From Flavobacteriales bacterium (lineage in GTDB: Bacteria; Bacteroidota; Bacteroidia; Flavobacteriales_D; Sanyastnellaceae), in NCBI GenBank assembly GCA_947442505.1, contig CANEVR010000016.1, positions 1 through 43,403 on the forward strand: a stretch of 43,403 nucleotides of DNA. The letters are read 5' to 3'. Each line of letters begins with the position of its first letter. Positions within the stretch are counted from its first letter, which is position 1. The notes beneath the pieces are model-generated. The model was given only the letters and a program-made list of their open reading frames with translations, was not told the origin of the DNA and did not search any database. Shown here piece by piece: positions 14,656-26,245 of this stretch. The translations under genes and the position numbers were made by a program.

Positions 14656-17538
14656 ATGATGAAGAAATTTTTTATTCTGTTTTTCGCGATGACCAGCTTG
14701 GTTGGATGGTCTCAAAATAATTTTTCAGGTGTAGTTACGGATGCCCTTTCCGGAGAAACGATACCATCGGCAGTTTTGGTTTGGGGAGAGAAAAAAGACA
14801 AAGGCGCAGTGGCCGATGTCAATGGTAAATTCTCTGCTCAACTGCCCAAGGGAGTGCAAAAGATTTATTTTTCTGCTGTTGGTTATGAAGAGCAAATGCA
14901 AGAAATAAGTATAGGAAGCAAGCCGTTGAGTATGGATGTGCAATTGGTCCTGATCAATCAAAGAGAACTATTGATTGTGACGGATTTGGCTGTGGGTAGA
15001 AAGGTGCCCGTTGCTTATTCCAACATTGACATGAAGCGTATTGATGAAGAATTGGGAGGAAGGGAAATGGCTACTTTGGCCAATACCACACCTGGTGCCT
15101 ATGCTACACGTTCAGGTGGAGGTGATGGAGATGCACGTGTCACGATCAGAGGATTTTCCGGGCCCAATGTTGCGGTTATGCTAGACGGTGTTCCTGTGAA
15201 TGACATGGAGAACGGAACGGTTTATTGGAGCAATTGGTTTGGTTTGGATTTGGTAACACAAACAGCCCAAATTCAACGCGGATTGGGAGCTTCCAAATTG
15301 GTAATTCCTGCAGTAGGTGGAACCATGAATATTATTACCAGAGGGATTGACCAAAAGAGAAGAATCCAAGTGAAACAAGAGTTTGCCGTTGATGCCTTTA
15401 GTCGTACTTCCATCGGAATGAATACCGGTAAATTGAAAGATGGTTGGGCTTTTTCCTTTGCTGCTTCTGTCAAAAGTGGTCAGGGTTGGGTAGATGCCAC
15501 ACCAACAGAAGGTGTATTTGGCTTCTTTAAAGTTGAAAAGAAAGTGGATCGTCACCTATTGAGCTTCTACGCTTTGGGCGCACCTCAACGACACGGGCAA
15601 AGAGGAAGACAAGACGCCATTGCCATGTATGATCGCGAAACTGCGGAGAATTTGGGAGTACCTACAACGTATTTTAATAGCAGTGCCAATCCCAATGCAG
15701 CGATTTTTGACGGTGGTATTAATTACAACCCAGACAAAGGGTATTTGGAAAGGTATACAATGATGGGTGGTCAAAAAACCGACATCCAATCCAGAGAAAT
15801 GGTGAACGCTAGAGAGAATTTTTATTTCAAACCTCAATTCTCTTTGAAAGATGTATGGAACATCAATGACCACTCATTCCTATCAACTGTGGCATACATG
15901 TCCATCGGTCGTGGTGGTGGTAAGCGTTGGAATGATAATTTAGGGGTTAAAGATTACTTGGCAGATGGAACCGTTGATGTTCAGAAATTTTATGATGCCA
16001 ATTCCGGAGCTACCATCCCGCTTTTCTCAGGTCCTGATTACAACATCAATCCTTTGGTGAGCACAACGGAACGTTACGCAACGTCCAATTACATTAAGGC
16101 AAGTATGAACGAGCATCAATGGACGGGCATCTTATCTACTTACAGCAATCAGGTAAATGAGAATTTTACCCTTTCGGGAGGAGTGGACATTCGTAATTAT
16201 AGAGGTGCACATTATCGCAAGGTCATCGATCTTATGGGTGCTGATTACATCGTAACCAGAAGTGCTTTTGACAAGAACGATCCCAATTTGGTGAAGAGAG
16301 AAGGCGATATTGTTGATTACAACAATGACGCTTTGGTTCGATGGGGAGGATTATTTGGACAAATGGAATACGAAGATCGCAGATTGACAGCCTTTATCAG
16401 TGCTTCTACGGCCATGACAGGATACAAGCGAATCGATTATTTCTTGCCTAAAGTATACAATGCCAATGGAGTCGATGTTGAAGTAGGGTATAGTCAACCC
16501 ACCAATGTGCCTAACTATGTTGCATTGGTTTCGGATACAACCATGTTAAATGGACAACAATTTGTGTCAGGTATGTCAGGTGCTGAGTACCAAAGTACAG
16601 GTTGGCTTTATAGAAATACACTCACTGTGAAATATGGATTTAAAACTACTTTTTCAGATCATTTTTCAGCATTCTTCAATGCCGGTTATTTGAATAAGGC
16701 TCCTCAATTCAATCAAGTATACACCAATGGGAATCAACGTTTTGCCAACATCCACAATGAAATTATCATGAGCAATGAGGTTGGATTCAATTGGAAGTAT
16801 CCAAAATTGGCATTGAATGTCAATGCATATCACACAACATGGGAAAATAAGCCATACCCTTATGGATTGTCTGTTCCCAATCCCTTGGACCCATCCACCA
16901 ATATCAGCGTCAACGTAAGGGGTATGAATGCCCGTCACATGGGTTTGGAAATGGATGCTGCATATAAAATAACAGATCGATTGACGTTAGAAGTTTTGGC
17001 CTCCTTTGCCGATTGGATATGGACTTCAGGAGATACCATTTACGTGAGAGATGACAATGGAAATGTGATGTTGAAAGATCCCGAGGATCCCAATTCGGGA
17101 CCTTATACTTTTGTATATGATGCTTATGGCGTTCACGTCAGCGATGCAGCTCAAACGCAGTTGGGAGCTATGTTGCGTTACGAATGGAAAAATGGAGCTT
17201 ATTTAAAAACACGCTATACTTGGTTTGATCGCTATTTTGCAGAATTGAATCCCTTTACCCTGAATGGAGCCAATGCGGGAAGAGAGTCTTGGAGACTTCC
17301 CAGTTATGGTACGTTGGAGTTGCATACGGGTTATACCTATGTAACAGAATCCAAGAATAGATGGGATTTACGATGCAGTGTTTATAATTTGTTGAATGAC
17401 AAGTTTATCACCGATGCTACCAACAACAGCACTTCGGCGCTTTATAACAATAAGTCCAATGATTTCGATGCTGCTTCAGCGGGTGTTTTCTTTGGACAGA
17501 ACAGATGGTTTAATGTATCTTTAACGGCCACTTTTTAA
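14656..17538 (+). CDS. TonB-dependent outer-membrane receptor
   Basis: 960 residues from the ATG at 14656. The longer reading from 14545 runs through the previous gene and the terminator and was rejected. Order: signal peptide (MKKFFILFFAMTSLVGWSQ); a carboxypeptidase-regulatory-like domain (FSGVVTDALSGETIPSAVL, about residues 20-100); a plug domain (NTTPGAYATRSGGGDGDARV, VTIRGFSGPNVAVMLDGVPV, TQTAQIQRGLGASK, VGGTMNIITRG, to about 240); then a beta barrel ending in WFNVSLTATF with the terminal phenylalanine. It moves a substrate across the outer membrane using ExbBD-TonB energy. There is no SusD partner, so it is not a classical polysaccharide locus. The stop overlaps the start of the next gene (TAATG), tying the receptor to the secreted PLD-fold protein. 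Confidence 0.95.
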   Translation: MMKKFFILFFAMTSLVGWSQNNFSGVVTDALSGETIPSAVLVWGEKKDKGAVADVNGKFSAQLPKGVQKIYFSAVGYEEQMQEISIGSKPLSMDVQLVLINQRELLIVTDLAVGRKVPVAYSNIDMKRIDEELGGREMATLANTTPGAYATRSGGGDGDARVTIRGFSGPNVAVMLDGVPVNDMENGTVYWSNWFGLDLVTQTAQIQRGLGASKLVIPAVGGTMNIITRGIDQKRRIQVKQEFAVDAFSRTSIGMNTGKLKDGWAFSFAASVKSGQGWVDATPTEGVFGFFKVEKKVDRHLLSFYALGAPQRHGQRGRQDAIAMYDRETAENLGVPTTYFNSSANPNAAIFDGGINYNPDKGYLERYTMMGGQKTDIQSREMVNARENFYFKPQFSLKDVWNINDHSFLSTVAYMSIGRGGGKRWNDNLGVKDYLADGTVDVQKFYDANSGATIPLFSGPDYNINPLVSTTERYATSNYIKASMNEHQWTGILSTYSNQVNENFTLSGGVDIRNYRGAHYRKVIDLMGADYIVTRSAFDKNDPNLVKREGDIVDYNNDALVRWGGLFGQMEYEDRRLTAFISASTAMTGYKRIDYFLPKVYNANGVDVEVGYSQPTNVPNYVALVSDTTMLNGQQFVSGMSGAEYQSTGWLYRNTLTVKYGFKTTFSDHFSAFFNAGYLNKAPQFNQVYTNGNQRFANIHNEIIMSNEVGFNWKYPKLALNVNAYHTTWENKPYPYGLSVPNPLDPSTNISVNVRGMNARHMGLEMDAAYKITDRLTLEVLASFADWIWTSGDTIYVRDDNGNVMLKDPEDPNSGPYTFVYDAYGVHVSDAAQTQLGAMLRYEWKNGAYLKTRYTWFDRYFAELNPFTLNGANAGRESWRLPSYGTLELHTGYTYVTESKNRWDLRCSVYNLLNDKFITDATNNSTSALYNNKSNDFDAASAGVFFGQNRWFNVSLTATF

Positions 17539-20500
17539 TGAATAAAATGAAATCCAAATCAATGAAAAAAATAAGTGTTTTTTTGCTGTCCCTATTTGCT
17601 TGGACAGCGCAATCACAATTTGTGATTAATGAGGTAGATGTAGATCAGACGGGAACAGATACGCAGGAGTTTATTGAATTAAAAGGAACTCCGGGTTTTT
17701 CTTTGTCGGGATATGTGATGGTTTTATTCAATGGAAACAATGCTACCGAAGCTTCTTATTTGGCAGTGGATTTATCGGGTGTAATTCCTGCTTCTGGTTA
17801 CTTTGTTATTGGAAATCCGTTGGTTCCCAACGTTAATCAAATTGTAGATCCCGGTGCGAGTGGAGCATTTCAAAATGGAGCAGATGCCGTAGCCATTTAT
17901 CAAGGTACAGCAGCAGCTTGGCCAAATGGAACTTCACCAACGTTAACAGGTGCTGTGGACGCAGTGGTTTACGGTACTGATGATGCAAACGATACAGGAT
18001 TGTTGGGCATTTTTGTTCCTGGTCAAATCCAAGTCAATGAAAGTCCAAGTGCCACGACTTCGTCTTCTAGAATTCCCGATGGAGGGACTCCATTTAACCA
18101 ATCGGTATTTAGTGCACAAACACCTACCCCGGGGGCTTCCAATTCAGGTGAAGTTGCGGGTTGTATGGATGTGACTGCATGTAACTTTAACGCCAATGCA
18201 ACCTCTGATGATGGTTCATGCGCTACTGTTGGTGATGCATGTGATGACGGCAATGCAGGAACAGCGGGTGATGCTTATGATGCATCTTGTCAATGTATTG
18301 GTGAAATTTCGGGTTGTATGGATGCTTCTGCTTGTAATTACAATGCAGCGGCAGTGTTGGACGATGGATCTTGCGCTTTACCAGGAGATGCGTGTAATGA
18401 CAACAATGGTGCAACCATCAATGACGTCTATGATGCAAGTTGTATTTGTATAGGAGAAGATTCTGGACAAAGCACTGTGGTATTGGCTGAGCAAGCTGGA
18501 GTTGGAGCTACTGTTACTGTAACAGGAATCATTACCAATGGAGTTGAGATGGGAAGTGCAGTCCGTTACATTCAAGATTTTGGCGGTGGATTGGCCATCT
18601 ATCCTGGCACAGCATGGACCACTTTTACAGCACCCAATCGCGGTGATTTGGTTACTGTGACTGGAACACTTTCTGAATTCGGTGGTCTTTTGGAATTGGG
18701 TCCTACATTGACTGCTGTTACAGTTAATGCCACCAATCAAACGTTGCCAACTCCACAATTGATTACACCTGCTCAGTTGGGTGAGTCATTGGAAGGTGAA
18801 TTGGTGACGGTTGAGAATGTTGTGTTTGATTTGGCAGGAACGCCTATATCTGGAAACTCAACCTACAATTTCACTTCTAATGGTGAGCAAGGAGCAATTT
18901 ACATCAGGGCAGGAAGCGTATTGGTGGGTGTAAATTTGCCAGCAAGCGCGGTAACCTTAGTCGGAATCGCTTCACAATATGATCCTGCAGCTCCTTTTGA
19001 TGCGGGTTATCAAATTTTACCAAGGGATGAGAATGATTTTATTTTACCTCCAGGTGTAGCCATCTTAGGTCAAGTGGTGCAAGAGAACATCAATACCACT
19101 TCTTTTGATTTGACATGGGCTACCAATAATCCCGGCAACAGCCAAGTCAATTATGGATTAACTCCAGCCTTGGGTCAGTCTGTTGTAGTAAATGACAACG
19201 TTACAGATCATACAGTAACAGTGACAGGTCTTGAGCCCGGTACCATTTACTATTGTTCAGTGACTTCAACCAATGCGGATGGAAGTTCTAGTTCTACAGT
19301 TCGTCCATACGCAACAAAGAGTTTGAGCTCAGGTGAGATTCGTGTTTATTTCAATCGTCAGGTTGACACGACCTATGCCACCGTTGAAAATGCCTTGAGC
19401 ATTGGCGCTGGATCAAATGATAGTATTGCAGCATATATCAGCAGAGCGCAACAGTCAGTGGACATTGCCATTTACAATTTTACAGATGATGCTGTCATTG
19501 CCAACGCAATAAATGCTCGATATGATGCTGGAGTCCAAGTGCGAGTCGTTGCAGATGGGTCAACAGCACAAATGGGTTTAAGTTTGCTTAACCCTGCAAT
19601 ACCTGTAGTTGAGAGAGTAAATACCTCTGGCACTGGTATCATGCACAATAAGTTTCTTATAGTAGATGCTGATGATGTTGACAATGCATGGGTATGGACA
19701 GGTTCTATGAACTGGACAGACAACAATCTTAACAATGACTATAACAACATCATCATTTTCCAAGATCAAAGTATCGCGCGCGGTTATCGTTTGGAATTTG
19801 AAGAAATGTGGGGCGGCAGTGGATCAAATCCTGGAAACCCCAATGGTGTTTTCGGAGCTGCCAAATCAGCCAATACACCAACAGAGTATGTACTTGGCCC
19901 CAACAATATTCGTGTTGAAAGTTATTTCTCTCCTACCGACAATGCCAATGGAGCCATTATCCGTTCCATGCAAACCACGGATGCCAATTTGGATTATGCT
20001 GTTTTGGCGTTTACTCGTCAAGACATTGCAGATGCCATCATTGCTGAAGATGATTTGTTCCTTGTGTTGGTTCGTGGTATTATAGAACAAACTTCAGATC
20101 CTGCATCAGAGTATGGTTATTTACAAACAGCAGGTCAAGACGTAAGATCTCATGAAGGCATAACTTACGATGTTCATCACAAGTATTTGATAGTGGATCA
20201 CAGCAGCTTGGATTCTGATCCTTTGGTTTTAACGGGTAGTCATAACTGGAGTTCTGCTGCGCAGACTACCAATGATGAGAATACCGTAATTGTTCACGAT
20301 GCCCGTGTGGCCAATCTTTATCTTCAGGAATTCATGAACCTTTGGGGAACTGAACCCGCTTCTGTAGAAAACGCAACGGATGGAACAGGAAACATGTATC
20401 CCAATCCTGCCGAGAATCAATTGTGGATAGCTCTTCCGAAAGGTGTTCAAAATGCAAACGTTTTTGTATTCAATCAATCCGGTCAAATGGTTCAAGAGTT

Positions 20501-20615
20501 TGCCGTAGGTCAAGGTTTGCAGTCGGTTCAATTGGCAGGTTTGTCTAGTGGTGTTTATCATTTTCAAGTGGTGAGTGAGAGCAGAAGTTGGAACAAACAA
20601 GTAATTGTCAAATAA
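17538..20615 (+). CDS. secreted multidomain LTD / phospholipase D-fold protein, T9SS type A
   Basis: 1025 residues. Start at 17538 overlaps the receptor stop; ATGs at 17547 and 17562 are also possible and the last sits right at the signal peptide (MKKISVFLLSLFAWTAQSQ). Domains in order: LTD (about 28-200); two cysteine modules GCMDVTACNFNANATSDDGS and GCMDASACNYNAAAVLDDGS (about 207-310); an OB-fold-like region (about 315-505); a fibronectin-III-like domain (about 515-595); a PLD-fold catalytic part with two complete HxK(x4)D motifs, HNKFLIVD (His703, Lys705, Asp710) and HHKYLIVD (His880, Lys882, Asp887), each followed by a TGSxNW element; and a T9SS sorting domain from MYPNPAENQ. The two HKD motifs suggest an active phosphodiesterase. 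The LTD and OB-like parts favour nucleic acid over phospholipid as substrate, but that is inference. Confidence 0.88.
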   Translation: MNKMKSKSMKKISVFLLSLFAWTAQSQFVINEVDVDQTGTDTQEFIELKGTPGFSLSGYVMVLFNGNNATEASYLAVDLSGVIPASGYFVIGNPLVPNVNQIVDPGASGAFQNGADAVAIYQGTAAAWPNGTSPTLTGAVDAVVYGTDDANDTGLLGIFVPGQIQVNESPSATTSSSRIPDGGTPFNQSVFSAQTPTPGASNSGEVAGCMDVTACNFNANATSDDGSCATVGDACDDGNAGTAGDAYDASCQCIGEISGCMDASACNYNAAAVLDDGSCALPGDACNDNNGATINDVYDASCICIGEDSGQSTVVLAEQAGVGATVTVTGIITNGVEMGSAVRYIQDFGGGLAIYPGTAWTTFTAPNRGDLVTVTGTLSEFGGLLELGPTLTAVTVNATNQTLPTPQLITPAQLGESLEGELVTVENVVFDLAGTPISGNSTYNFTSNGEQGAIYIRAGSVLVGVNLPASAVTLVGIASQYDPAAPFDAGYQILPRDENDFILPPGVAILGQVVQENINTTSFDLTWATNNPGNSQVNYGLTPALGQSVVVNDNVTDHTVTVTGLEPGTIYYCSVTSTNADGSSSSTVRPYATKSLSSGEIRVYFNRQVDTTYATVENALSIGAGSNDSIAAYISRAQQSVDIAIYNFTDDAVIANAINARYDAGVQVRVVADGSTAQMGLSLLNPAIPVVERVNTSGTGIMHNKFLIVDADDVDNAWVWTGSMNWTDNNLNNDYNNIIIFQDQSIARGYRLEFEEMWGGSGSNPGNPNGVFGAAKSANTPTEYVLGPNNIRVESYFSPTDNANGAIIRSMQTTDANLDYAVLAFTRQDIADAIIAEDDLFLVLVRGIIEQTSDPASEYGYLQTAGQDVRSHEGITYDVHHKYLIVDHSSLDSDPLVLTGSHNWSSAAQTTNDENTVIVHDARVANLYLQEFMNLWGTEPASVENATDGTGNMYPNPAENQLWIALPKGVQNANVFVFNQSGQMVQEFAVGQGLQSVQLAGLSSGVYHFQVVSESRSWNKQVIVK

Positions 20616-21244: not shown

Positions 21245-22609
21245 ATGAAGGTTCATTTGATAGCGATTGGGGGCAGTGCCATGCATAATTTGGCCATAGC
21301 CCTTTGTGACAAAGGGTATTTGGTTTCAGGGAGTGATGATGAGATTTTTGAGCCCAGTAAATCTCGATTGGCGAAAAAGGATTTATTGCCAACTTCTTTG
21401 GGATGGGATGCCGCAAGGATTCATGCAGATTTGGATGCTGTTATCGTTGGTATGCACGCCAGAGCAGATAATCCCGAACTCCTGAAGGCACAAGAATTGG
21501 GTCTTAAAATATATTCTTATCCAGAATATATCTTTGAACAAACCAAAGATAAAAAGCGTATCGTTATTGGCGGCAGTCACGGCAAAACCACCATCACATC
21601 CATGTTGCTTCATGTATTTAAGCAAAATGAAATAGCTTGTGATTTTATGGTTGGAGCGCAATTGGCAGGATTTGATTGCATGGTCAAACTCACAGAGGAT
21701 GCAGAGTATGTTATACTTGAGGGGGATGAGTATTTGTCATCACCCATTGATTTAAGACCAAAATTTCATCTATACAAACCACACATTGCCTTGATAAGTG
21801 GTATTGCATGGGACCATATCAATGTTTTCCCAACGTTTCAAAACTATATACATCAGTTTGATGTGTTTATTGATTGCATAGAACCCAATGGCGCGTTGAT
21901 TTATGCCAGTGAAGATCCTGAAGTTCTAAAACTTGCGCAAAAGCCAAGGCACCGAAGTATTGAAACTTTGGGTTACGGGCCTCACCCCAACAAAGTGGAA
22001 AATGGTGTTACCTACTTGGATACCACATCAGGATGGCTTCCCATTAAGGTTTTTGGTCATCACAATTTGCAAAACCTGAACGGGGCCATGCAGATATGCA
22101 GAATGGTAGGAATTTCAGACGAAGGATTTTATTCCGCGATTGCTTCATTTGAGGGAGCTTCAAAGCGTTTGGAAATTGTAGCGCGAAGAAACCAAGGAAT
22201 TGTTTTCAAAGATTTTGCGCACTCACCATCGAAGCTCAAGGCCACAAGTTCAGCTGTCAAACGACAATTCCCGCAACACCGCATTGTGGCTTGCATGGAG
22301 CTGCACACCTTTAGCAGTCTCAATTCCGCATTTTTGGAACAATATGCGCACAGCATGGATGAACCAGATGTAGCCATTGTTTACTTTAATCCGCATACCA
22401 TTGAGCACAAGCGGTTGGACCCCATTAGTGTGGATGATGTGAAAAAAGCTTTTCAACGGGAGGATTTGATCGTGTTAACTGATGCCAGTTTGGTTGAAAT
22501 GATTTTAATGGAAAGTGATTGGGAGAAAACGCACTTATTATGGATGACCAGTGGCAATTTTGATGGGTTGGACATCGCAGATTTGGCTTTGCGATTACCA
22601 ATGAATTAA
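21245..22609 (+). CDS. mpl: Mpl, UDP-MurNAc:tripeptide ligase
   Basis: Mpl joins the recycled tripeptide L-Ala-gamma-D-Glu-meso-DAP to UDP-MurNAc, returning wall peptides to peptidoglycan synthesis. The 454-residue protein is a Mur-family ligase. It has a Rossmann-like N-terminus HLIAIGGSAMHNLAIALCDK, in which GSAM replaces the GIGMSG of MurC (typical of Mpl), the ATP loop GGSHGKTTITSM, LEGDEYLSSPIDLRPKF with the carbamylation/Mg region, HHNLQNLNGAMQICR, and FKDFAHSPSKLKATSSAVK with the C-terminal domain's peptide-binding site. It is the first gene of the tightly packed run continuing to rnhA. Confidence 0.92.
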   Translation: MKVHLIAIGGSAMHNLAIALCDKGYLVSGSDDEIFEPSKSRLAKKDLLPTSLGWDAARIHADLDAVIVGMHARADNPELLKAQELGLKIYSYPEYIFEQTKDKKRIVIGGSHGKTTITSMLLHVFKQNEIACDFMVGAQLAGFDCMVKLTEDAEYVILEGDEYLSSPIDLRPKFHLYKPHIALISGIAWDHINVFPTFQNYIHQFDVFIDCIEPNGALIYASEDPEVLKLAQKPRHRSIETLGYGPHPNKVENGVTYLDTTSGWLPIKVFGHHNLQNLNGAMQICRMVGISDEGFYSAIASFEGASKRLEIVARRNQGIVFKDFAHSPSKLKATSSAVKRQFPQHRIVACMELHTFSSLNSAFLEQYAHSMDEPDVAIVYFNPHTIEHKRLDPISVDDVKKAFQREDLIVLTDASLVEMILMESDWEKTHLLWMTSGNFDGLDIADLALRLPMN

Positions 22610-22625: not shown

Positions 22626-23762
22626 ATGAAAGTTCCAAAAGTTATGGTATCTGGATGTTTTGATGCATTGCATCCGGGGCACATTGCATTTCTAGAGCGC
22701 GCGGCAGATTTCGGTGATTTATTTGTATGCATAGGCAATGACGCCAATGTCTTGCAATTGAAGAACAGGCCCACCTATTTCAATGAGCACGAACGAACAT
22801 ATTTGCTAAGTGCTTTGAGTGTTGTAAAAGAAGTCAAAATCAGTAAAGGGTTTGGCCAGTTGGATTTTATTGAAGAGCTAAACGAAATTGTTCCAGATTA
22901 TTTTGTTGTTAATGAAGATGGGCATAGCGAAGAAAAGCAGGCACTCATTGAGTCTAGTGGAGTCCAATACATTGTACTAGAAAGAACACCCAAAGAGGGT
23001 TTACCTGCACGGTCAACGACTCAATTTAGGAAAGATACAGAGATGCCATTTCGAATCGATTTGGCAGGCGGATGGTTGGATCAACCCTTTGTCAGTGAGC
23101 ACTGCCCTGGTCCTGTTATTACCATTTCCATTTTACCAACGGTCAACTTTAATTTGAGAAGTGGAATGGCCTCTAGCACAAGAAACACAGCGTTGAGTTT
23201 ATGGGGAAAACACCTGCCCAGTCAAGACACTGAGCAAGTGGCCAAGTTACTTTTCGCTGCTGATAATCCCCCTGGAAAGAAAAATGTTTCAGGCTCTCAA
23301 GATGCAATAGGCATTGTTTTTCCAGGCTTAAATAGGTTGGATTATGCCAATGATTATTGGCCGCAAGGCATTACCACCGTTCTTGATGAAGATACATTAT
23401 TGTGGTTGGAGCATCATCTGTTTTTGATTCCAATAGGGCCGCGAGAAGATGGTTTTGAGGTTCTGGACGAAGTCCATCTCAGTCATGATGGAGCAGCACA
23501 ATTGGCTGATGCAGCTAAAAATGTTTGGATGAGTATTCTGAATAAAGACTTGAATGGATTGGGGAGATGGATGACGGCATCATTTAGAGCGCAGTGTCAG
23601 CTATTTCCGCTCATGACCAATGAAACGGCAGAAGCCATACTAAAACCAATTGAATCCGATATTTTGGGTTTTAAGATTTCAGGCGCAGGTGGTGGTGGTT
23701 ATTGGGTGGTTGTTTCAGAATACAAATTGGAATCTTTCATTCCAATTAAAATAAGAAGATAA
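22626..23762 (+). CDS. cytidylyltransferase-like / GHMP kinase-like fusion protein
   Basis: 378 residues in two halves. Residues 4-135 form a nucleotidyltransferase of the cytidylyltransferase family (PF01467): VMVSGCFDALHPGHIAFLER with the HPGH site (16-19), and ARSTTQ (128-133) matching the family's RSTT element. Residues about 141-378 resemble the GHMP sugar kinases of the HddA/fucokinase type: FRIDLAGGWLDQP (142-154) is motif 1 and FKISGAGGGGYWVV (349-362) is motif 3. The canonical GLGSSSA phosphate loop is not seen; a conserved-looking VSGSQDAIGIVFPGL (221-235) occupies roughly its place, so kinase activity is uncertain. The kinase half is short (about 235 residues). Transferase-kinase fusions such as HldE and FKP activate sugars, and the next genes are a FucP-like transporter and a mutarotase, so activation of a scavenged sugar is the best inference. 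The substrate is unknown. Confidence 0.8.
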   Translation: MKVPKVMVSGCFDALHPGHIAFLERAADFGDLFVCIGNDANVLQLKNRPTYFNEHERTYLLSALSVVKEVKISKGFGQLDFIEELNEIVPDYFVVNEDGHSEEKQALIESSGVQYIVLERTPKEGLPARSTTQFRKDTEMPFRIDLAGGWLDQPFVSEHCPGPVITISILPTVNFNLRSGMASSTRNTALSLWGKHLPSQDTEQVAKLLFAADNPPGKKNVSGSQDAIGIVFPGLNRLDYANDYWPQGITTVLDEDTLLWLEHHLFLIPIGPREDGFEVLDEVHLSHDGAAQLADAAKNVWMSILNKDLNGLGRWMTASFRAQCQLFPLMTNETAEAILKPIESDILGFKISGAGGGGYWVVVSEYKLESFIPIKIRR

Positions 23763-24934
23763 TGAAGCATAGTCAATCGTTGTTTTTAGCCCTGGTATCA
23801 TTGTTTTTTATGTGGGCATTGGCGCACAACTTAAATCCAATTTTGATTGCCAAGTTGCGACAGTCTTTTCAATTGTCGGACACCAAGGCCATGTTGGTGG
23901 ACAGCGCTTTTTATATCGCTTATTTTATCATGGCCTTGCCATCTGCTTTTTTGATTGCTAAAATGGGTTATCAAAAAACCATCTTGTTGGGGTTGGCATT
24001 GTTTGCCACCGGTATATTGGGATTCTTACCAGCATCACTCTTTCATTCTTATGCCTTTTTCTTGGGTGCTTTGTTGTTAATCGGTTTGGGGATTACGATG
24101 CTTGAAGCAGCTGCCAATCCATTGATAACGCGAATTTCCGCTCCAGAACAACAAGTGTACAGACTCAATTTGGCGCAAAGTTTCAATGGTCTTGGCGCTA
24201 TGGTTGCCGCTGGTTTGGGAGGCTTTTTACTATTGGATGAAACAGATCAGAATAGTCAATTGGAAACAACACCTTTCGTTGTGCTGGCTCTGATTATTGT
24301 TTGCTTAATGTTTTTCATCTACCGTTTGAAATTTCCAATATTTCATGAGACAAGTCTTGATGCACCATCAAATTCAAATGGCATTTTTAAGAACAAGTCT
24401 TTTGTAATGTCCGTGGTTGCTCAGTTTCTATATGTGGGTTCACAGATTGGTGTTTCAAGTTTTTTTATCCGGTACATGAGTCAATACTTTTCTCATAGTA
24501 TGCAGGAATCAGCCTATTACCTTTCTCTTTCATTGGCTTTTTTTACAACAGGAAGATTCATTGGATCTTGGATGATGAGAAGATGGCTGGCAGAGCGAAT
24601 TCTTTTGTTCTACTCTTTAGGTGCTGCCATTTGTACGGTAGGGGTTGTGTTGGCTCAGCCATTTTCACAGTTCTTTTTGTTGGCACTTCCGTTTTTCATG
24701 TCCATCATGTTCCCTACCATCTTTGCGCTTGGAATAGGCTCTTTGCAAAACAACAAAGAGCGTGGCGGTGCGTTTATTGTCATGACCATTTCAGGCGGAG
24801 CTTTGATTCCATTTGCAATGGCTCAATTGGCGCAATGGTCTGGGAATTTAAGTTGGGCCTATATTTTGCCAATGGTGTGCTTTTGCTTTGTTGGGGTATT
24901 TGCTTTTTATTTCAAAAGAATGCAGCATGAATGA
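23762..24934 (+). CDS. FucP-like sugar:proton symporter (FHS family MFS)
   Basis: 390 residues with twelve predicted membrane segments. FFMWALAHNLNPILIAKLRQ near the N-terminus and LEAAANPLITRISAPEQ followed by RLNLAQSFNGLGAM are the signatures of the fucose-galactose-hexuronate:H+ symporter family (FucP type). It would import a monosaccharide across the inner membrane. Its start shares one base with the previous stop (TAATG), and it overlaps the mutarotase by eight bases. The family handles L-fucose, glucose/galactose, N-acetylglucosamine and others; which sugar cannot be read from sequence, though the RhaM-like partner points toward a 6-deoxyhexose. Confidence 0.88.
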   Translation: MKHSQSLFLALVSLFFMWALAHNLNPILIAKLRQSFQLSDTKAMLVDSAFYIAYFIMALPSAFLIAKMGYQKTILLGLALFATGILGFLPASLFHSYAFFLGALLLIGLGITMLEAAANPLITRISAPEQQVYRLNLAQSFNGLGAMVAAGLGGFLLLDETDQNSQLETTPFVVLALIIVCLMFFIYRLKFPIFHETSLDAPSNSNGIFKNKSFVMSVVAQFLYVGSQIGVSSFFIRYMSQYFSHSMQESAYYLSLSLAFFTTGRFIGSWMMRRWLAERILLFYSLGAAICTVGVVLAQPFSQFFLLALPFFMSIMFPTIFALGIGSLQNNKERGGAFIVMTISGGALIPFAMAQLAQWSGNLSWAYILPMVCFCFVGVFAFYFKRMQHE

Positions 24935-25265
24935 GTATGTTTTTTTTCTGGATTTGGTTGATGATCCAGACGGAATCGCTGAATATGAAAAATGGCATCA
25001 AAACGTTTGGCCAGAAGTAGAGGCGCAGATTTTGAAATCAGGCATCACATCATGTCGCATTTATAGATTAAGTAATCGTTTGGTTTTAATAGCACATTCC
25101 AATCAGGAGATGAATTGGGAGAAGAAGTCCATCGCTGATTTGGGTCACCCTCCAACAGTTGAATGGGAAAAACTAATGTGGAAGTTTCAACAATCTATTC
25201 CAGGTTCTCTCTCAGGCGAGAAATGGAAAATGGCGAATTTAATTTATGAACTTAAGGCAGAATGA
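24927..25265 (+). CDS. L-rhamnose/L-fucose mutarotase family protein (RhaM-like)
   Basis: 112 residues, the normal length for the RhaM family (PF05336), which interconverts alpha and beta anomers of L-rhamnose or L-fucose. YEKWHQNVWPEVEAQI contains the family histidine (His24), and RLSNRLVLIAH followed by a WEKLMWKFQ segment complete the pattern. The ATG at 24927 was chosen over an upstream in-frame start at 24888 because the earlier 13 residues lie wholly within the transporter and are not family-like. It overlaps both neighbours, so co-translation with the transporter is expected. Confidence 0.85.
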   Translation: MNEYVFFLDLVDDPDGIAEYEKWHQNVWPEVEAQILKSGITSCRIYRLSNRLVLIAHSNQEMNWEKKSIADLGHPPTVEWEKLMWKFQQSIPGSLSGEKWKMANLIYELKAE

Positions 25266-26245
25266 ATAGAATAATATTGGGATTTGTCTTTGTTTTCTCT
25301 TTGATTGCTTCTGAAGCGTTGATTGCTCAGCGCAACTTCATTCAAAGTGCTCGTTCAAGGAAAATGCATCGACATCATTTGAATGAAATTGTTTTAAAGT
25401 TCAACAATGGCGAGGAGGGACACGCCTGGGTCTCGCATCAAGGAAAGCCAAAGTTGCTTTTGCTTCATGGTATAACAGGGAATGCTGAAGTTCAATACGC
25501 CAGGAATGCTTCTAAGTTGAGTAAGCATTATGACGTGATAGCCTTGGATCTTAAATTTCATGGAGAATCCAAGAATATTCCTCAAGGTTATTCCATCCAA
25601 GATCAAGTGCATTGGGTTGCTGAATGTATGTTATTGTTATCCCAGTTGCACAATGATGAAGGCTATCAAAAGGTTCATGTTGTTGGAAATTCATACGGCG
25701 GAATAGTCGCTGGAATCTTTGCAGATCAATATCCCAATATGACAAGTCAGCTTACAATGATTGATGCCCCAATACGATTTTTTGGCGCATCAATGGCCGA
25801 TTCTATTGCGCATTCGGTTGGGCTTCAAGATTTTTTTGATTTGTTGTCTCCAACAAACGCTGCGGTATTTAACACACGAACAAAGTTGTCATTGCATCGA
25901 AAAATATGGGTGCCGCGTTTTGTGGCCAATCAGATTATTGAAAATGATTTAAAACCAAGGCGCGTAGATCACGAGCAGTTGGTAGATGATTTAAGGAAAA
26001 GTGAGGAGTATTGGATCAGTTACAATTTTCAATGGAATTGCAAGGTCAACATATTCTGGGGGGATGCAGATCGATTGATTCCGCTTGAGGTCGGAAGAAA
26101 ACAAGCTGAATATTTTAAGGGAATCAACTATACAGAGCTTGAAAAGGTTGGGCATGTCTGGAATATGGAGAGACCCAAACAATTCAATCAATGGTTAATA
26201 AAAAATCAGAATAGATACAGAACGCTTATTAACCCAAGTTTTTAA
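25262..26245 (+). CDS. secreted/periplasmic alpha/beta hydrolase
   Basis: 327 residues with an N-terminal signal peptide (ILGFVFVFSLIASEALIAQ). The fold is a classical alpha/beta hydrolase: LLLLHGITGNAEVQYARNAS with the oxyanion HG, VVGNSYGGIVAG with nucleophile Ser144, FWGDADRLIP with the acid (Asp268 or Asp270), and KVGHVWNMERP with His298. The substrate is unknown. It overlaps the mutarotase by four bases (ATGA), so it belongs to the same operon and might deacylate the imported sugar or its precursor outside the inner membrane, which is inference only. Confidence 0.85.
   Translation: MNRIILGFVFVFSLIASEALIAQRNFIQSARSRKMHRHHLNEIVLKFNNGEEGHAWVSHQGKPKLLLLHGITGNAEVQYARNASKLSKHYDVIALDLKFHGESKNIPQGYSIQDQVHWVAECMLLLSQLHNDEGYQKVHVVGNSYGGIVAGIFADQYPNMTSQLTMIDAPIRFFGASMADSIAHSVGLQDFFDLLSPTNAAVFNTRTKLSLHRKIWVPRFVANQIIENDLKPRRVDHEQLVDDLRKSEEYWISYNFQWNCKVNIFWGDADRLIPLEVGRKQAEYFKGINYTELEKVGHVWNMERPKQFNQWLIKNQNRYRTLINPSF

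Follow-up and report, generated by a model that had tools for sequence, protein, structure and literature searches.

The window analysed here is a 43,403-nucleotide stretch of DNA from a Flavobacteriales bacterium (contig CANEVR010000016.1, assembly GCA_947442505.1), and the element in question is a run of four plus-strand open reading frames (ORFs) at positions 22626 to 26245. In order, these encode a nucleotidyltransferase-GHMP fusion of 378 aa (22626..23762, hereafter the fusion), a FucP-like major facilitator superfamily (MFS) sugar transporter of 390 aa (23762..24934), a RhaM-like mutarotase of 111 aa (24930..25265, counted from a chosen ATG at 24930; the mechanical ORF begins at a TTG at 24888) and an alpha/beta hydrolase of 327 aa (25262..26245) whose N-terminus appears hydrophobic by eye. 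Successive ORFs overlap by 1, 5 and 4 bases, in agreement with the four overlapping or nearly overlapping genes described in an initial annotation made from the letters alone. The cluster is real, and a chance arrangement is implausible because the phylogenomic search for the fusion and its neighbours proposed in that annotation, once run, returned homologues of the same architecture. From the computed domain make-up, conserved residues, gene neighbours and a missing segment, we consider it probable that the fusion acts both as L-fucose-1-kinase and as fucose-1-phosphate nucleotidyltransferase, which would make it a functional analogue of FKP (the bifunctional L-fucokinase/GDP-fucose pyrophosphorylase of Bacteroides fragilis), set in a fucose import operon.

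Domain make-up of the fusion and its missing segment

The N-terminal half (plus strand, 22626..23015, approximately residues 1-130) is a cytidylyltransferase-like domain of the TagD/HldE type. Its match to PF01467 (1.2e-10; 42.1 bits against a cut-off of 21), together with an HxGH motif, places it in the cytidylyltransferase-like superfamily, the family already named in the initial annotation. We take H16-P-G18-H19 (22671..22682) to be the HxGH nucleotide-binding motif, and the STT motif at residues 130-132 (23013..23021) is presumably the counterpart of the STT/STS motif of TagD and HldE. H16, G18, H19, R120, S130 and T132 are invariant in all 26 aligned members of the family, and T131 is nearly so. 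In the fold search VIA this half matches the glycerol-3-phosphate cytidylyltransferase TagD (1coz) with a Z of 18.4 over 125 residues at 1.8 A, although TagD is a single-domain enzyme with another substrate. HldE likewise carries a nucleotidyltransferase domain of this type, and the fusion scores below the cut-offs of the HldE models (39.2 bits of 521 for the full-length model NF008454 and 50.3 bits of 181.5 for the domain II model TIGR02199). TagD uses CTP and HldE uses ATP; the kinase of HldE is of the ribokinase type, and HddA is a GHMP sugar-1-kinase.

The C-terminal half (plus strand, 23037..23759, approximately residues 138-378) is a compact GHMP domain by fold and profile matches. No Pfam GHMP N or C domain is found in the fusion at an E value of 0.001, and PF01467 is its sole Pfam domain listed. 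An AlphaFold2 model of the fusion, with a predicted local distance difference test (pLDDT) of 88.7 and a predicted template modelling score (pTM) of 0.66, matches many GHMP kinases in VIA (Z of approximately 15 to 21.6), mostly over residues 139-378. These include the heptokinase WcbL (Z 21.6, root-mean-square deviation (rmsd) 3.0, 236 residues aligned) and the fucokinase part of FKP, 9iip (Z 20.2, rmsd 2.7, 222 aligned), while Foldseek puts 9iip slightly ahead of WcbL. A ribokinase-type kinase is not among the 50 matches listed per fold-search table (Foldseek, VIA), which is mere absence. When a profile of the C-terminal half is searched against the PDB with hmmsearch, FKP comes first (1.6e-13), followed by the heptokinase 3k85 (1.4e-6), and hhalign of this half against nine FKPs gives a probability of 99. 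The parallel to FKP drawn in the initial annotation thus turns out closer than was thought, with the C-terminal half nearest to the FKP fucokinase by profile and most of the named sugar residues kept.

GHMP motif 1 (PFRIDLAGGWLDQP, residues 141-154, 23046..23087) contains RIDLAGGWLD with R143, W150 and D152. It is followed by the P-loop position G180-M-A-S-S-T-R186 (23163..23183, with GMASST at 180-185), by G223-S-Q225-D226 (GSQD, 23292..23303) and by motif 3, KISGAGGGGY (residues 350-359, 23673..23702), which was found by alignment and profile search. The nine FKPs carry R[ILM]D[LIV]AGGW[TS]D, G[LM]GTSS and GWQD, and in the two of 949 aa the motifs lie at residue numbers matching PMC11982464. 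Residues R143, W150, D152, Q225 and D226 of the fusion correspond to R592, W599, D601, Q761 and D762 of FKP, G180-R186 to GLGTSS at 715-720, and G223-S-Q225-D226 to G759-W-Q761-D762, with D226 the proposed general base. In the available text of PMC11982464, D762 serves FKP as general base, R592 lies near the anomeric oxygen, W599 stacks on the C4-C6 edge of fucose, D601 and Q761 bind the C3/C4 hydroxyls, and the loop 712-720 holds the phosphates.

All three GHMP motifs are found in each of the 26 aligned members, where R143, W150, D152, G180, S184, T185, G223, Q225 and D226 are invariant, the P-loop reads G-[ML]-[AS]-[ST]-S-T, and motif 3 is variant in two members, L032 and L033 (L numbers are our handles for loci). 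Position 213, which falls close to that of E751 in FKP, holds an acidic residue (Asp or Glu) in 25 members. The motif-1 Trp is present in 9/9 FKPs and 26/26 fusions and is replaced by Gly in all 12 standalone HddA-like kinases. Since hhalign aligns the stretch from motif 1 to the catalytic Asp poorly, we assign the P-loop by motif and spacing and read it as present in altered form. The GLGSSSA loop is indeed absent, as the initial annotation stated, but the VSGSQDAIGI that it put in that place was misassigned: by the same motif and spacing, the P-loop is GMASSTR, and VSGSQDAIG is the catalytic-base motif.

The Arg of motif 1 and the Gly of the P-loop lie 37 residues apart in 25 members of the family and 51 apart in the remaining one, L029; the corresponding distance is 123 in 9/9 FKPs and 89-102 in 12/12 HddA-like kinases. 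Between the P-loop and the catalytic Asp, the distance is 46 residues in 26/26 members and 47 in 9/9 FKPs. Relative to the HddA-like kinases, 52-65 residues are absent from the N-lobe and the remainder keeps its spacing, the location of the missing segment being derived from motif spacing. The FKP residues proposed to surround adenine are D644, M645, P666, I669 and also L722 (PMC11982464), of which, by spacing only, the first four fall in the absent stretch and L722 falls outside it. The phosphate- and sugar-handling parts seem to remain while the usual base-binding part seems to be gone, and the phosphoryl donor is uncertain because the absent segment holds most of the proposed adenine site of FKP. 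Y240, Y244, W245 and P246 are invariant in the fusion family, and either the base would be bound in a new way or the donor would be one without a base.

Relatives, fucose genes and gene neighbourhoods

The complete copy of the fusion is single in its genome, where a second, weak match spans residues 6-98 alone. Five of six other genomes of the genus carry it at 57-94% identity, the sixth being 64% complete. A species scan with exact peptide patterns of the window protein, covering one genome each of 84,980 species, returned 27 loci in 26 records, 23 of the 27 titled Bacteroidota; members include Tamlana, Polaribacter, Wenyingzhuangia, Draconibacterium and Carboxylicivirga, and the number is an undercount, as only near patterns were caught. 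Its occurrence is scattered: of 395 genomes sampled evenly across the class, 8 carry the family at E 1e-40. A profile of the C-terminal half matches strongly in those eight genomes only, in fused frames of 381-419 aa; the next matches, at 4.4e-10 and weaker, come from frames of either 912-976 or 340-377 aa, and those of them that were read are FKPs and standalone kinases, 12 of 18 called HddA-like from their motifs. Two of the titles call for care. The locus L022, titled Chryseobacterium gleum, encodes a protein 94% identical to that of the window and seems to be of the window's genus, while L024 and L025 show an identical fusion neighbourhood in metagenome-assembled genomes titled Anaerolineae and Rhodospirillaceae, so that one of the titles or bins, if not both, is probably incorrect.

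Queried with the window protein, the plasmid and phage collections gave nothing that covers 80% of the query, with matches in the N-terminal domain, and the same holds for the phage collection queried with the viral protein of L131. Among viral contigs, a scan with just the window protein retrieved no locus, and a scan with the family alignment retrieved 39. Five viral-classed contigs (L106-L110) carry members 42-49% identical to the window family, that of L109 differing at its C-terminal end. Uncultivated viral contigs (L111-L143) also encode 25 distinct proteins, mostly of 350-385 aa, that form a second family, diverged in sequence but alike in architecture, with GWQD, 39-41 residues from motif 1 to the P-loop, and a P-loop of the form G[LV]GGS[AG] in the 24 where the pattern is readable. 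The members of L121 and L131, whose surroundings were scanned in most detail, lie amid T4-like replication genes (gp32-like, RecA-like and DnaB-like; RegA-like and AAA), the former near a glycosyltransferase and QueC and the latter beside a HAD-NTP_transferase fusion. Perhaps this viral family represents phage-encoded sugar activation for DNA or surface modification.

In a kinase-domain tree of 76 rows with 200 bootstraps, the fusion family (with four viral-contig members), the second viral family, FKP and the HddA-like kinases each stand separate with 98-100% support; the fusion and viral families group together, as do FKP and the HddA-like kinases. FKP resembles the fusion in its proposed overall reaction, in a GHMP-fold kinase half with matching sugar and catalytic-base residues, and in the order of its halves, with the transferase N-terminal and the kinase C-terminal. 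It differs in size (approximately 950 aa against 378), in carrying a PF07959 domain where the fusion has a TagD/HldE-type transferase, in the approximately 86 residues before the P-loop that the fusion lacks, and in its separate place in the tree. Against the full-length FKP model NF009948 the fusion scores 38.1 bits (cut-off 721), with residues 297-364 on profile positions 868-935 as the best stretch, and it is not an FKP member because PF07959 is absent.

The genome of the window encodes Gmd (581.6 bits) and Fcl (507.2 bits), both over cut-off, and has no match to FucI at E 1e-50, none to PF07959, and for FKP nothing beyond the weak match of the fusion itself; because of this combination, the organism probably uses GDP-fucose and is without the isomerase route of fucose breakdown (that route only). 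Among 37 fusion genomes, Fcl is found at E 1e-50 in 34 (7 over cut-off) and FucI in 16 (15 over cut-off), and PF07959 over cut-off is missing from 36, which means that a search for PF07959 only would overlook the fusion family. We considered and rejected the idea that the fusion replaces FKP: the eight fusion genomes and nine FKP genomes of the class sample do not overlap, but an overlap of just 0.2 is expected by chance.

Gene neighbourhoods were compared at 34 family loci (the window, two congeners, 7 class-sample genomes and 24 of the 27 species-scan loci, leaving out the near-copies L022 and L025 and the fragment L048) for FucP, RhaM, FucU, GH29, FucI, FucK, aldolase, Gmd and Fcl at E 1e-8 and at least 40% of the reference length. 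Fucose genes lie near the fusion in 16/34 loci, three of them (the window, L073 and L074) from one genus, against 1/19 control stretches. The controls are non-random stretches of fusion genomes totalling 290 kb against 533 kb, in which approximately 9 would be expected by length if the two were equal. The reference proteins came from L023, L030 and L038, and without those loci the count is 13/31. FucP adjoins the fusion in 10/34 loci, from five sample genera plus L023, RhaM or FucU is near it in 12/34, and GH29 in 6/34. The fusion gene stands between gmd and fcl in L030, L042 and L044; in L030 Gmd is over cut-off, and Fcl falls short of its own (435 bits of 500) yet matches a solved GDP-L-fucose synthase at 2.4e-126. 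The order in L023 is GH29, RhaM, fusion, FucP, GH29, and in L038 it is GH29-like (by clustering), aldolase, FucP, FucU, fusion, FucI, L-fuculokinase, GH29, with FucI and L-fuculokinase over cut-off and an aldolase that passes a model named rhamnulose-1-phosphate aldolase.

In seven loci of Carboxylicivirga and relatives (L034, L037, L039, L040, L041, L045 and L046; one representative per neighbour cluster was scanned), the fusion is downstream of pyruvate formate-lyase/activase cluster genes and of a formate/nitrite or MFS transporter, and the searched fucose genes are absent nearby.

Proposed function and alternatives

In the scheme that we infer, the cluster would scavenge free L-fucose, with the FucP-like protein as importer and the RhaM-like protein interconverting the anomers of the sugar. 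The GHMP half would phosphorylate C1 of the beta anomer; D226 would be the general base, with R143 near the anomeric oxygen, W150, D152 and Q225 holding the sugar ring, and the GMASSTR and GAGGGG loops holding the donor phosphates. The TagD/HldE-type half would convert fucose-1-phosphate and a nucleoside triphosphate (NTP), most simply GTP, to nucleoside diphosphate (NDP)-fucose and pyrophosphate (PPi), and the NDP-fucose would be destined for surface glycans. By comparison of sequences and neighbourhoods, L-fucose is strongly suggested as the substrate, and kinase chemistry of the C-terminal half is likely. There is good support for the monosaccharide salvage operon seen in the initial annotation, in which uptake and anomer conversion go together with a kinase-nucleotidyltransferase fusion. 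Its product had been left as unrecognised, perhaps CDP- or ADP-linked; the sugar can now be named as L-fucose because of the fucosidase, FucI/FucK, FucU and Gmd/Fcl neighbours at other loci, and the product would most simply be GDP-fucose.

Amuc_1591 of Akkermansia muciniphila is described with the same two-domain make-up and is linked to L-fucose by suppressor genetics (PMC13313206, 2026; compared here by description only). According to the available text of that paper, all 12 D-arabinose escape mutants are mutated in Amuc_1591 (three alleles, one of them a frameshift), and L-fucose or mucin restores growth. In the model given there, an adenylyl/cytidylyltransferase domain at the N-terminus is followed by a C-terminal one that resembles the FKP fucokinase 9IIP, and the authors propose that the protein is a fucose nucleotidyltransferase which may serve the outer membrane. 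This description fits the fusion family, with the differences that Amuc_1591 is described as sharing one transcriptional unit with murJ and is proposed as a nucleotidyltransferase. The term uncharacterised used in the initial annotation holds for enzymology, which the available text of PMC13313206 does not include, and holds less well for genetics, given these suppressors in a protein described with the same architecture. Bacterial fucose salvage is known through FKP, and D-arabinose has been tried as a substrate of its kinase (PMC12732313, in the part available); the main text of that 2025 phylogeny of FKP, FUK and GFPP mentions neither "GHMP" nor "cytidylyl", and the fusion is little described, judging from the open-licence literature.

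A number of points weigh against the assignment of the fusion as an L-fucose kinase-nucleotidyltransferase. Relative to FKP, approximately 86 residues are absent in 25/26 members and 72 in L029; T602 of FKP is replaced by Q153, and G717 of its P-loop by Ala or Ser. WcbL outranks FKP by VIA (21.6 against 20.2). In the tree the fusion falls apart from FKP, and the group branches are long (1.3 to 3.1); these branches and one flagged HddA-like row make the deeper order unsure, and the tree appears to lend no support to descent of the fusion as a shortened FKP. TagD/HldE-type enzymes are known with CTP or ATP, so that use of GTP would need explaining. The transporter and the mutarotase are both under their equivalog cut-offs, and 18/34 loci are without any searched fucose gene. 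FKP is over cut-off in 1/37 fusion genomes, with four more weak matches under it, as compared with 9/395 genomes of the class, and enrichment of Gmd (33/37 fusion genomes against 316/395 of the class) was set aside as evidence. We found no enzyme assay of such a fusion in print in the open-licence literature.

The loss of the adenine-site segment of FKP also gives some weight to the quite improbable reading that the GHMP half serves to bind a sugar-1-phosphate and does not act as a kinase, such that the fusion is only a nucleotidyltransferase and another kinase supplies the phosphate. The available text of PMC13313206 leans the same way, as it names Amuc_1591 a nucleotidyltransferase and calls its C-terminal half a predicted sugar-binding domain, although the frameshift allele reported there suppresses D-arabinose toxicity, as fits a first-step enzyme. 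The phosphoryl-transfer residues D226, R143, S184 and T185 are invariant in the 26 members and motif 3 is nearly so, the acidic residue at position 213 is kept in 25/26, and no other sugar kinase is among the seven window proteins scanned, all of which argues for a working kinase. We see a similarly slim chance that the chemistry is the same and the sugar another (L-galactose, D-arabinose, L-rhamnose or heptose), since RhaM is annotated for rhamnose, the aldolase of L038 passes its rhamnulose-1-phosphate model, the WcbL/HddA heptokinases are structurally close, and D-arabinose resembles fucose. Against this stand the FucP match, the GH29, FucI, L-fuculokinase, FucU and Gmd/Fcl neighbours, and the fucose-stacking Trp that is invariant in the fusion and lacking in 12/12 HddA-like kinases. 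A product of CDP- or ADP-fucose in place of GDP-fucose is unlikely, but deserves more weight than either: the best matches of the N-terminal half are enzymes such as TagD with CTP and HldE with ATP, whereas the position of the fusion gene between gmd and fcl in three genomes points to GDP-fucose, the donor for all L-fucosyltransferases (PMC11982464, in its available text).

As to the donor, a highly speculative idea is that the kinase half lost its adenine pocket because it gave up ATP, and that it is a PPi-dependent GHMP kinase using the PPi released by its own nucleotidyltransferase half, so that L-fucose and NTP would give NDP-fucose and phosphate in a self-fuelling cycle. It would fit this idea that the compact kinase, as judged by strong matches in the 395 class genomes, is seen solely in fused frames (8/8), and that the diverged relative in viral contigs is also fused and also short-spaced. 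By our own estimate, however, such a step would be close to equilibrium, and an ATP pocket rebuilt, for example, around Y240, Y244 and W245 would account equally for the data. If the fusion does act as an L-fucose-1-kinase / fucose-1-phosphate nucleotidyltransferase, it would be a second bacterial solution to fucose salvage at under half the size of FKP and a compact catalyst for activated fucose, and it might explain D-arabinose sensitivity outside Akkermansia. The biochemical question that it poses is the phosphate source of a kinase domain without the usual adenine-binding segment.

Other genes of the cluster and its flanks

The transporter matches the fucP model TIGR00885 at 9.3e-76 with 255.6 bits, under the cut-off of 280.4, so it is FucP-like only. 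The RhaM-like protein is over the cut-off for PF05336 (3.7e-21; 75.8 bits against 23.4) and has 24.6 bits against the 99.6 of the equivalog TIGR02625. At those loci of the genus that were read, the alpha/beta hydrolase occupies the same position, and it does not cluster with any gene from the other loci. It looks to be fast-evolving and may be exported, since its identity to the L073 and L074 proteins is 38% and 35%, against 92% and 86% for the adjacent MarC-like protein.

Upstream of the fusion, after a gap of 16 bases, lies a Mpl/MurC-type ligase gene (mpl, 21245-22609), and the hydrolase is followed by the MarC-like protein and RNase HI. L022, L073 and L074 share the whole order Mpl, fusion, FucP, RhaM, hydrolase, and L075, which starts at the fusion, retains the remaining order. 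The hint of a cell-envelope use that the initial annotation took from mpl is weak, as mpl adjoins the fusion in loci of the window's genus only; we rejected it as a functional partner on the same ground, a MurC/Mpl-type gene in L032 being approximately 3 kb off. Elsewhere in the window, at 17538-20615, the translation of a 1025-aa ORF, read by eye, suggests phospholipase-D-like HxK repeats, a C-terminal sorting region and secretion of the protein.

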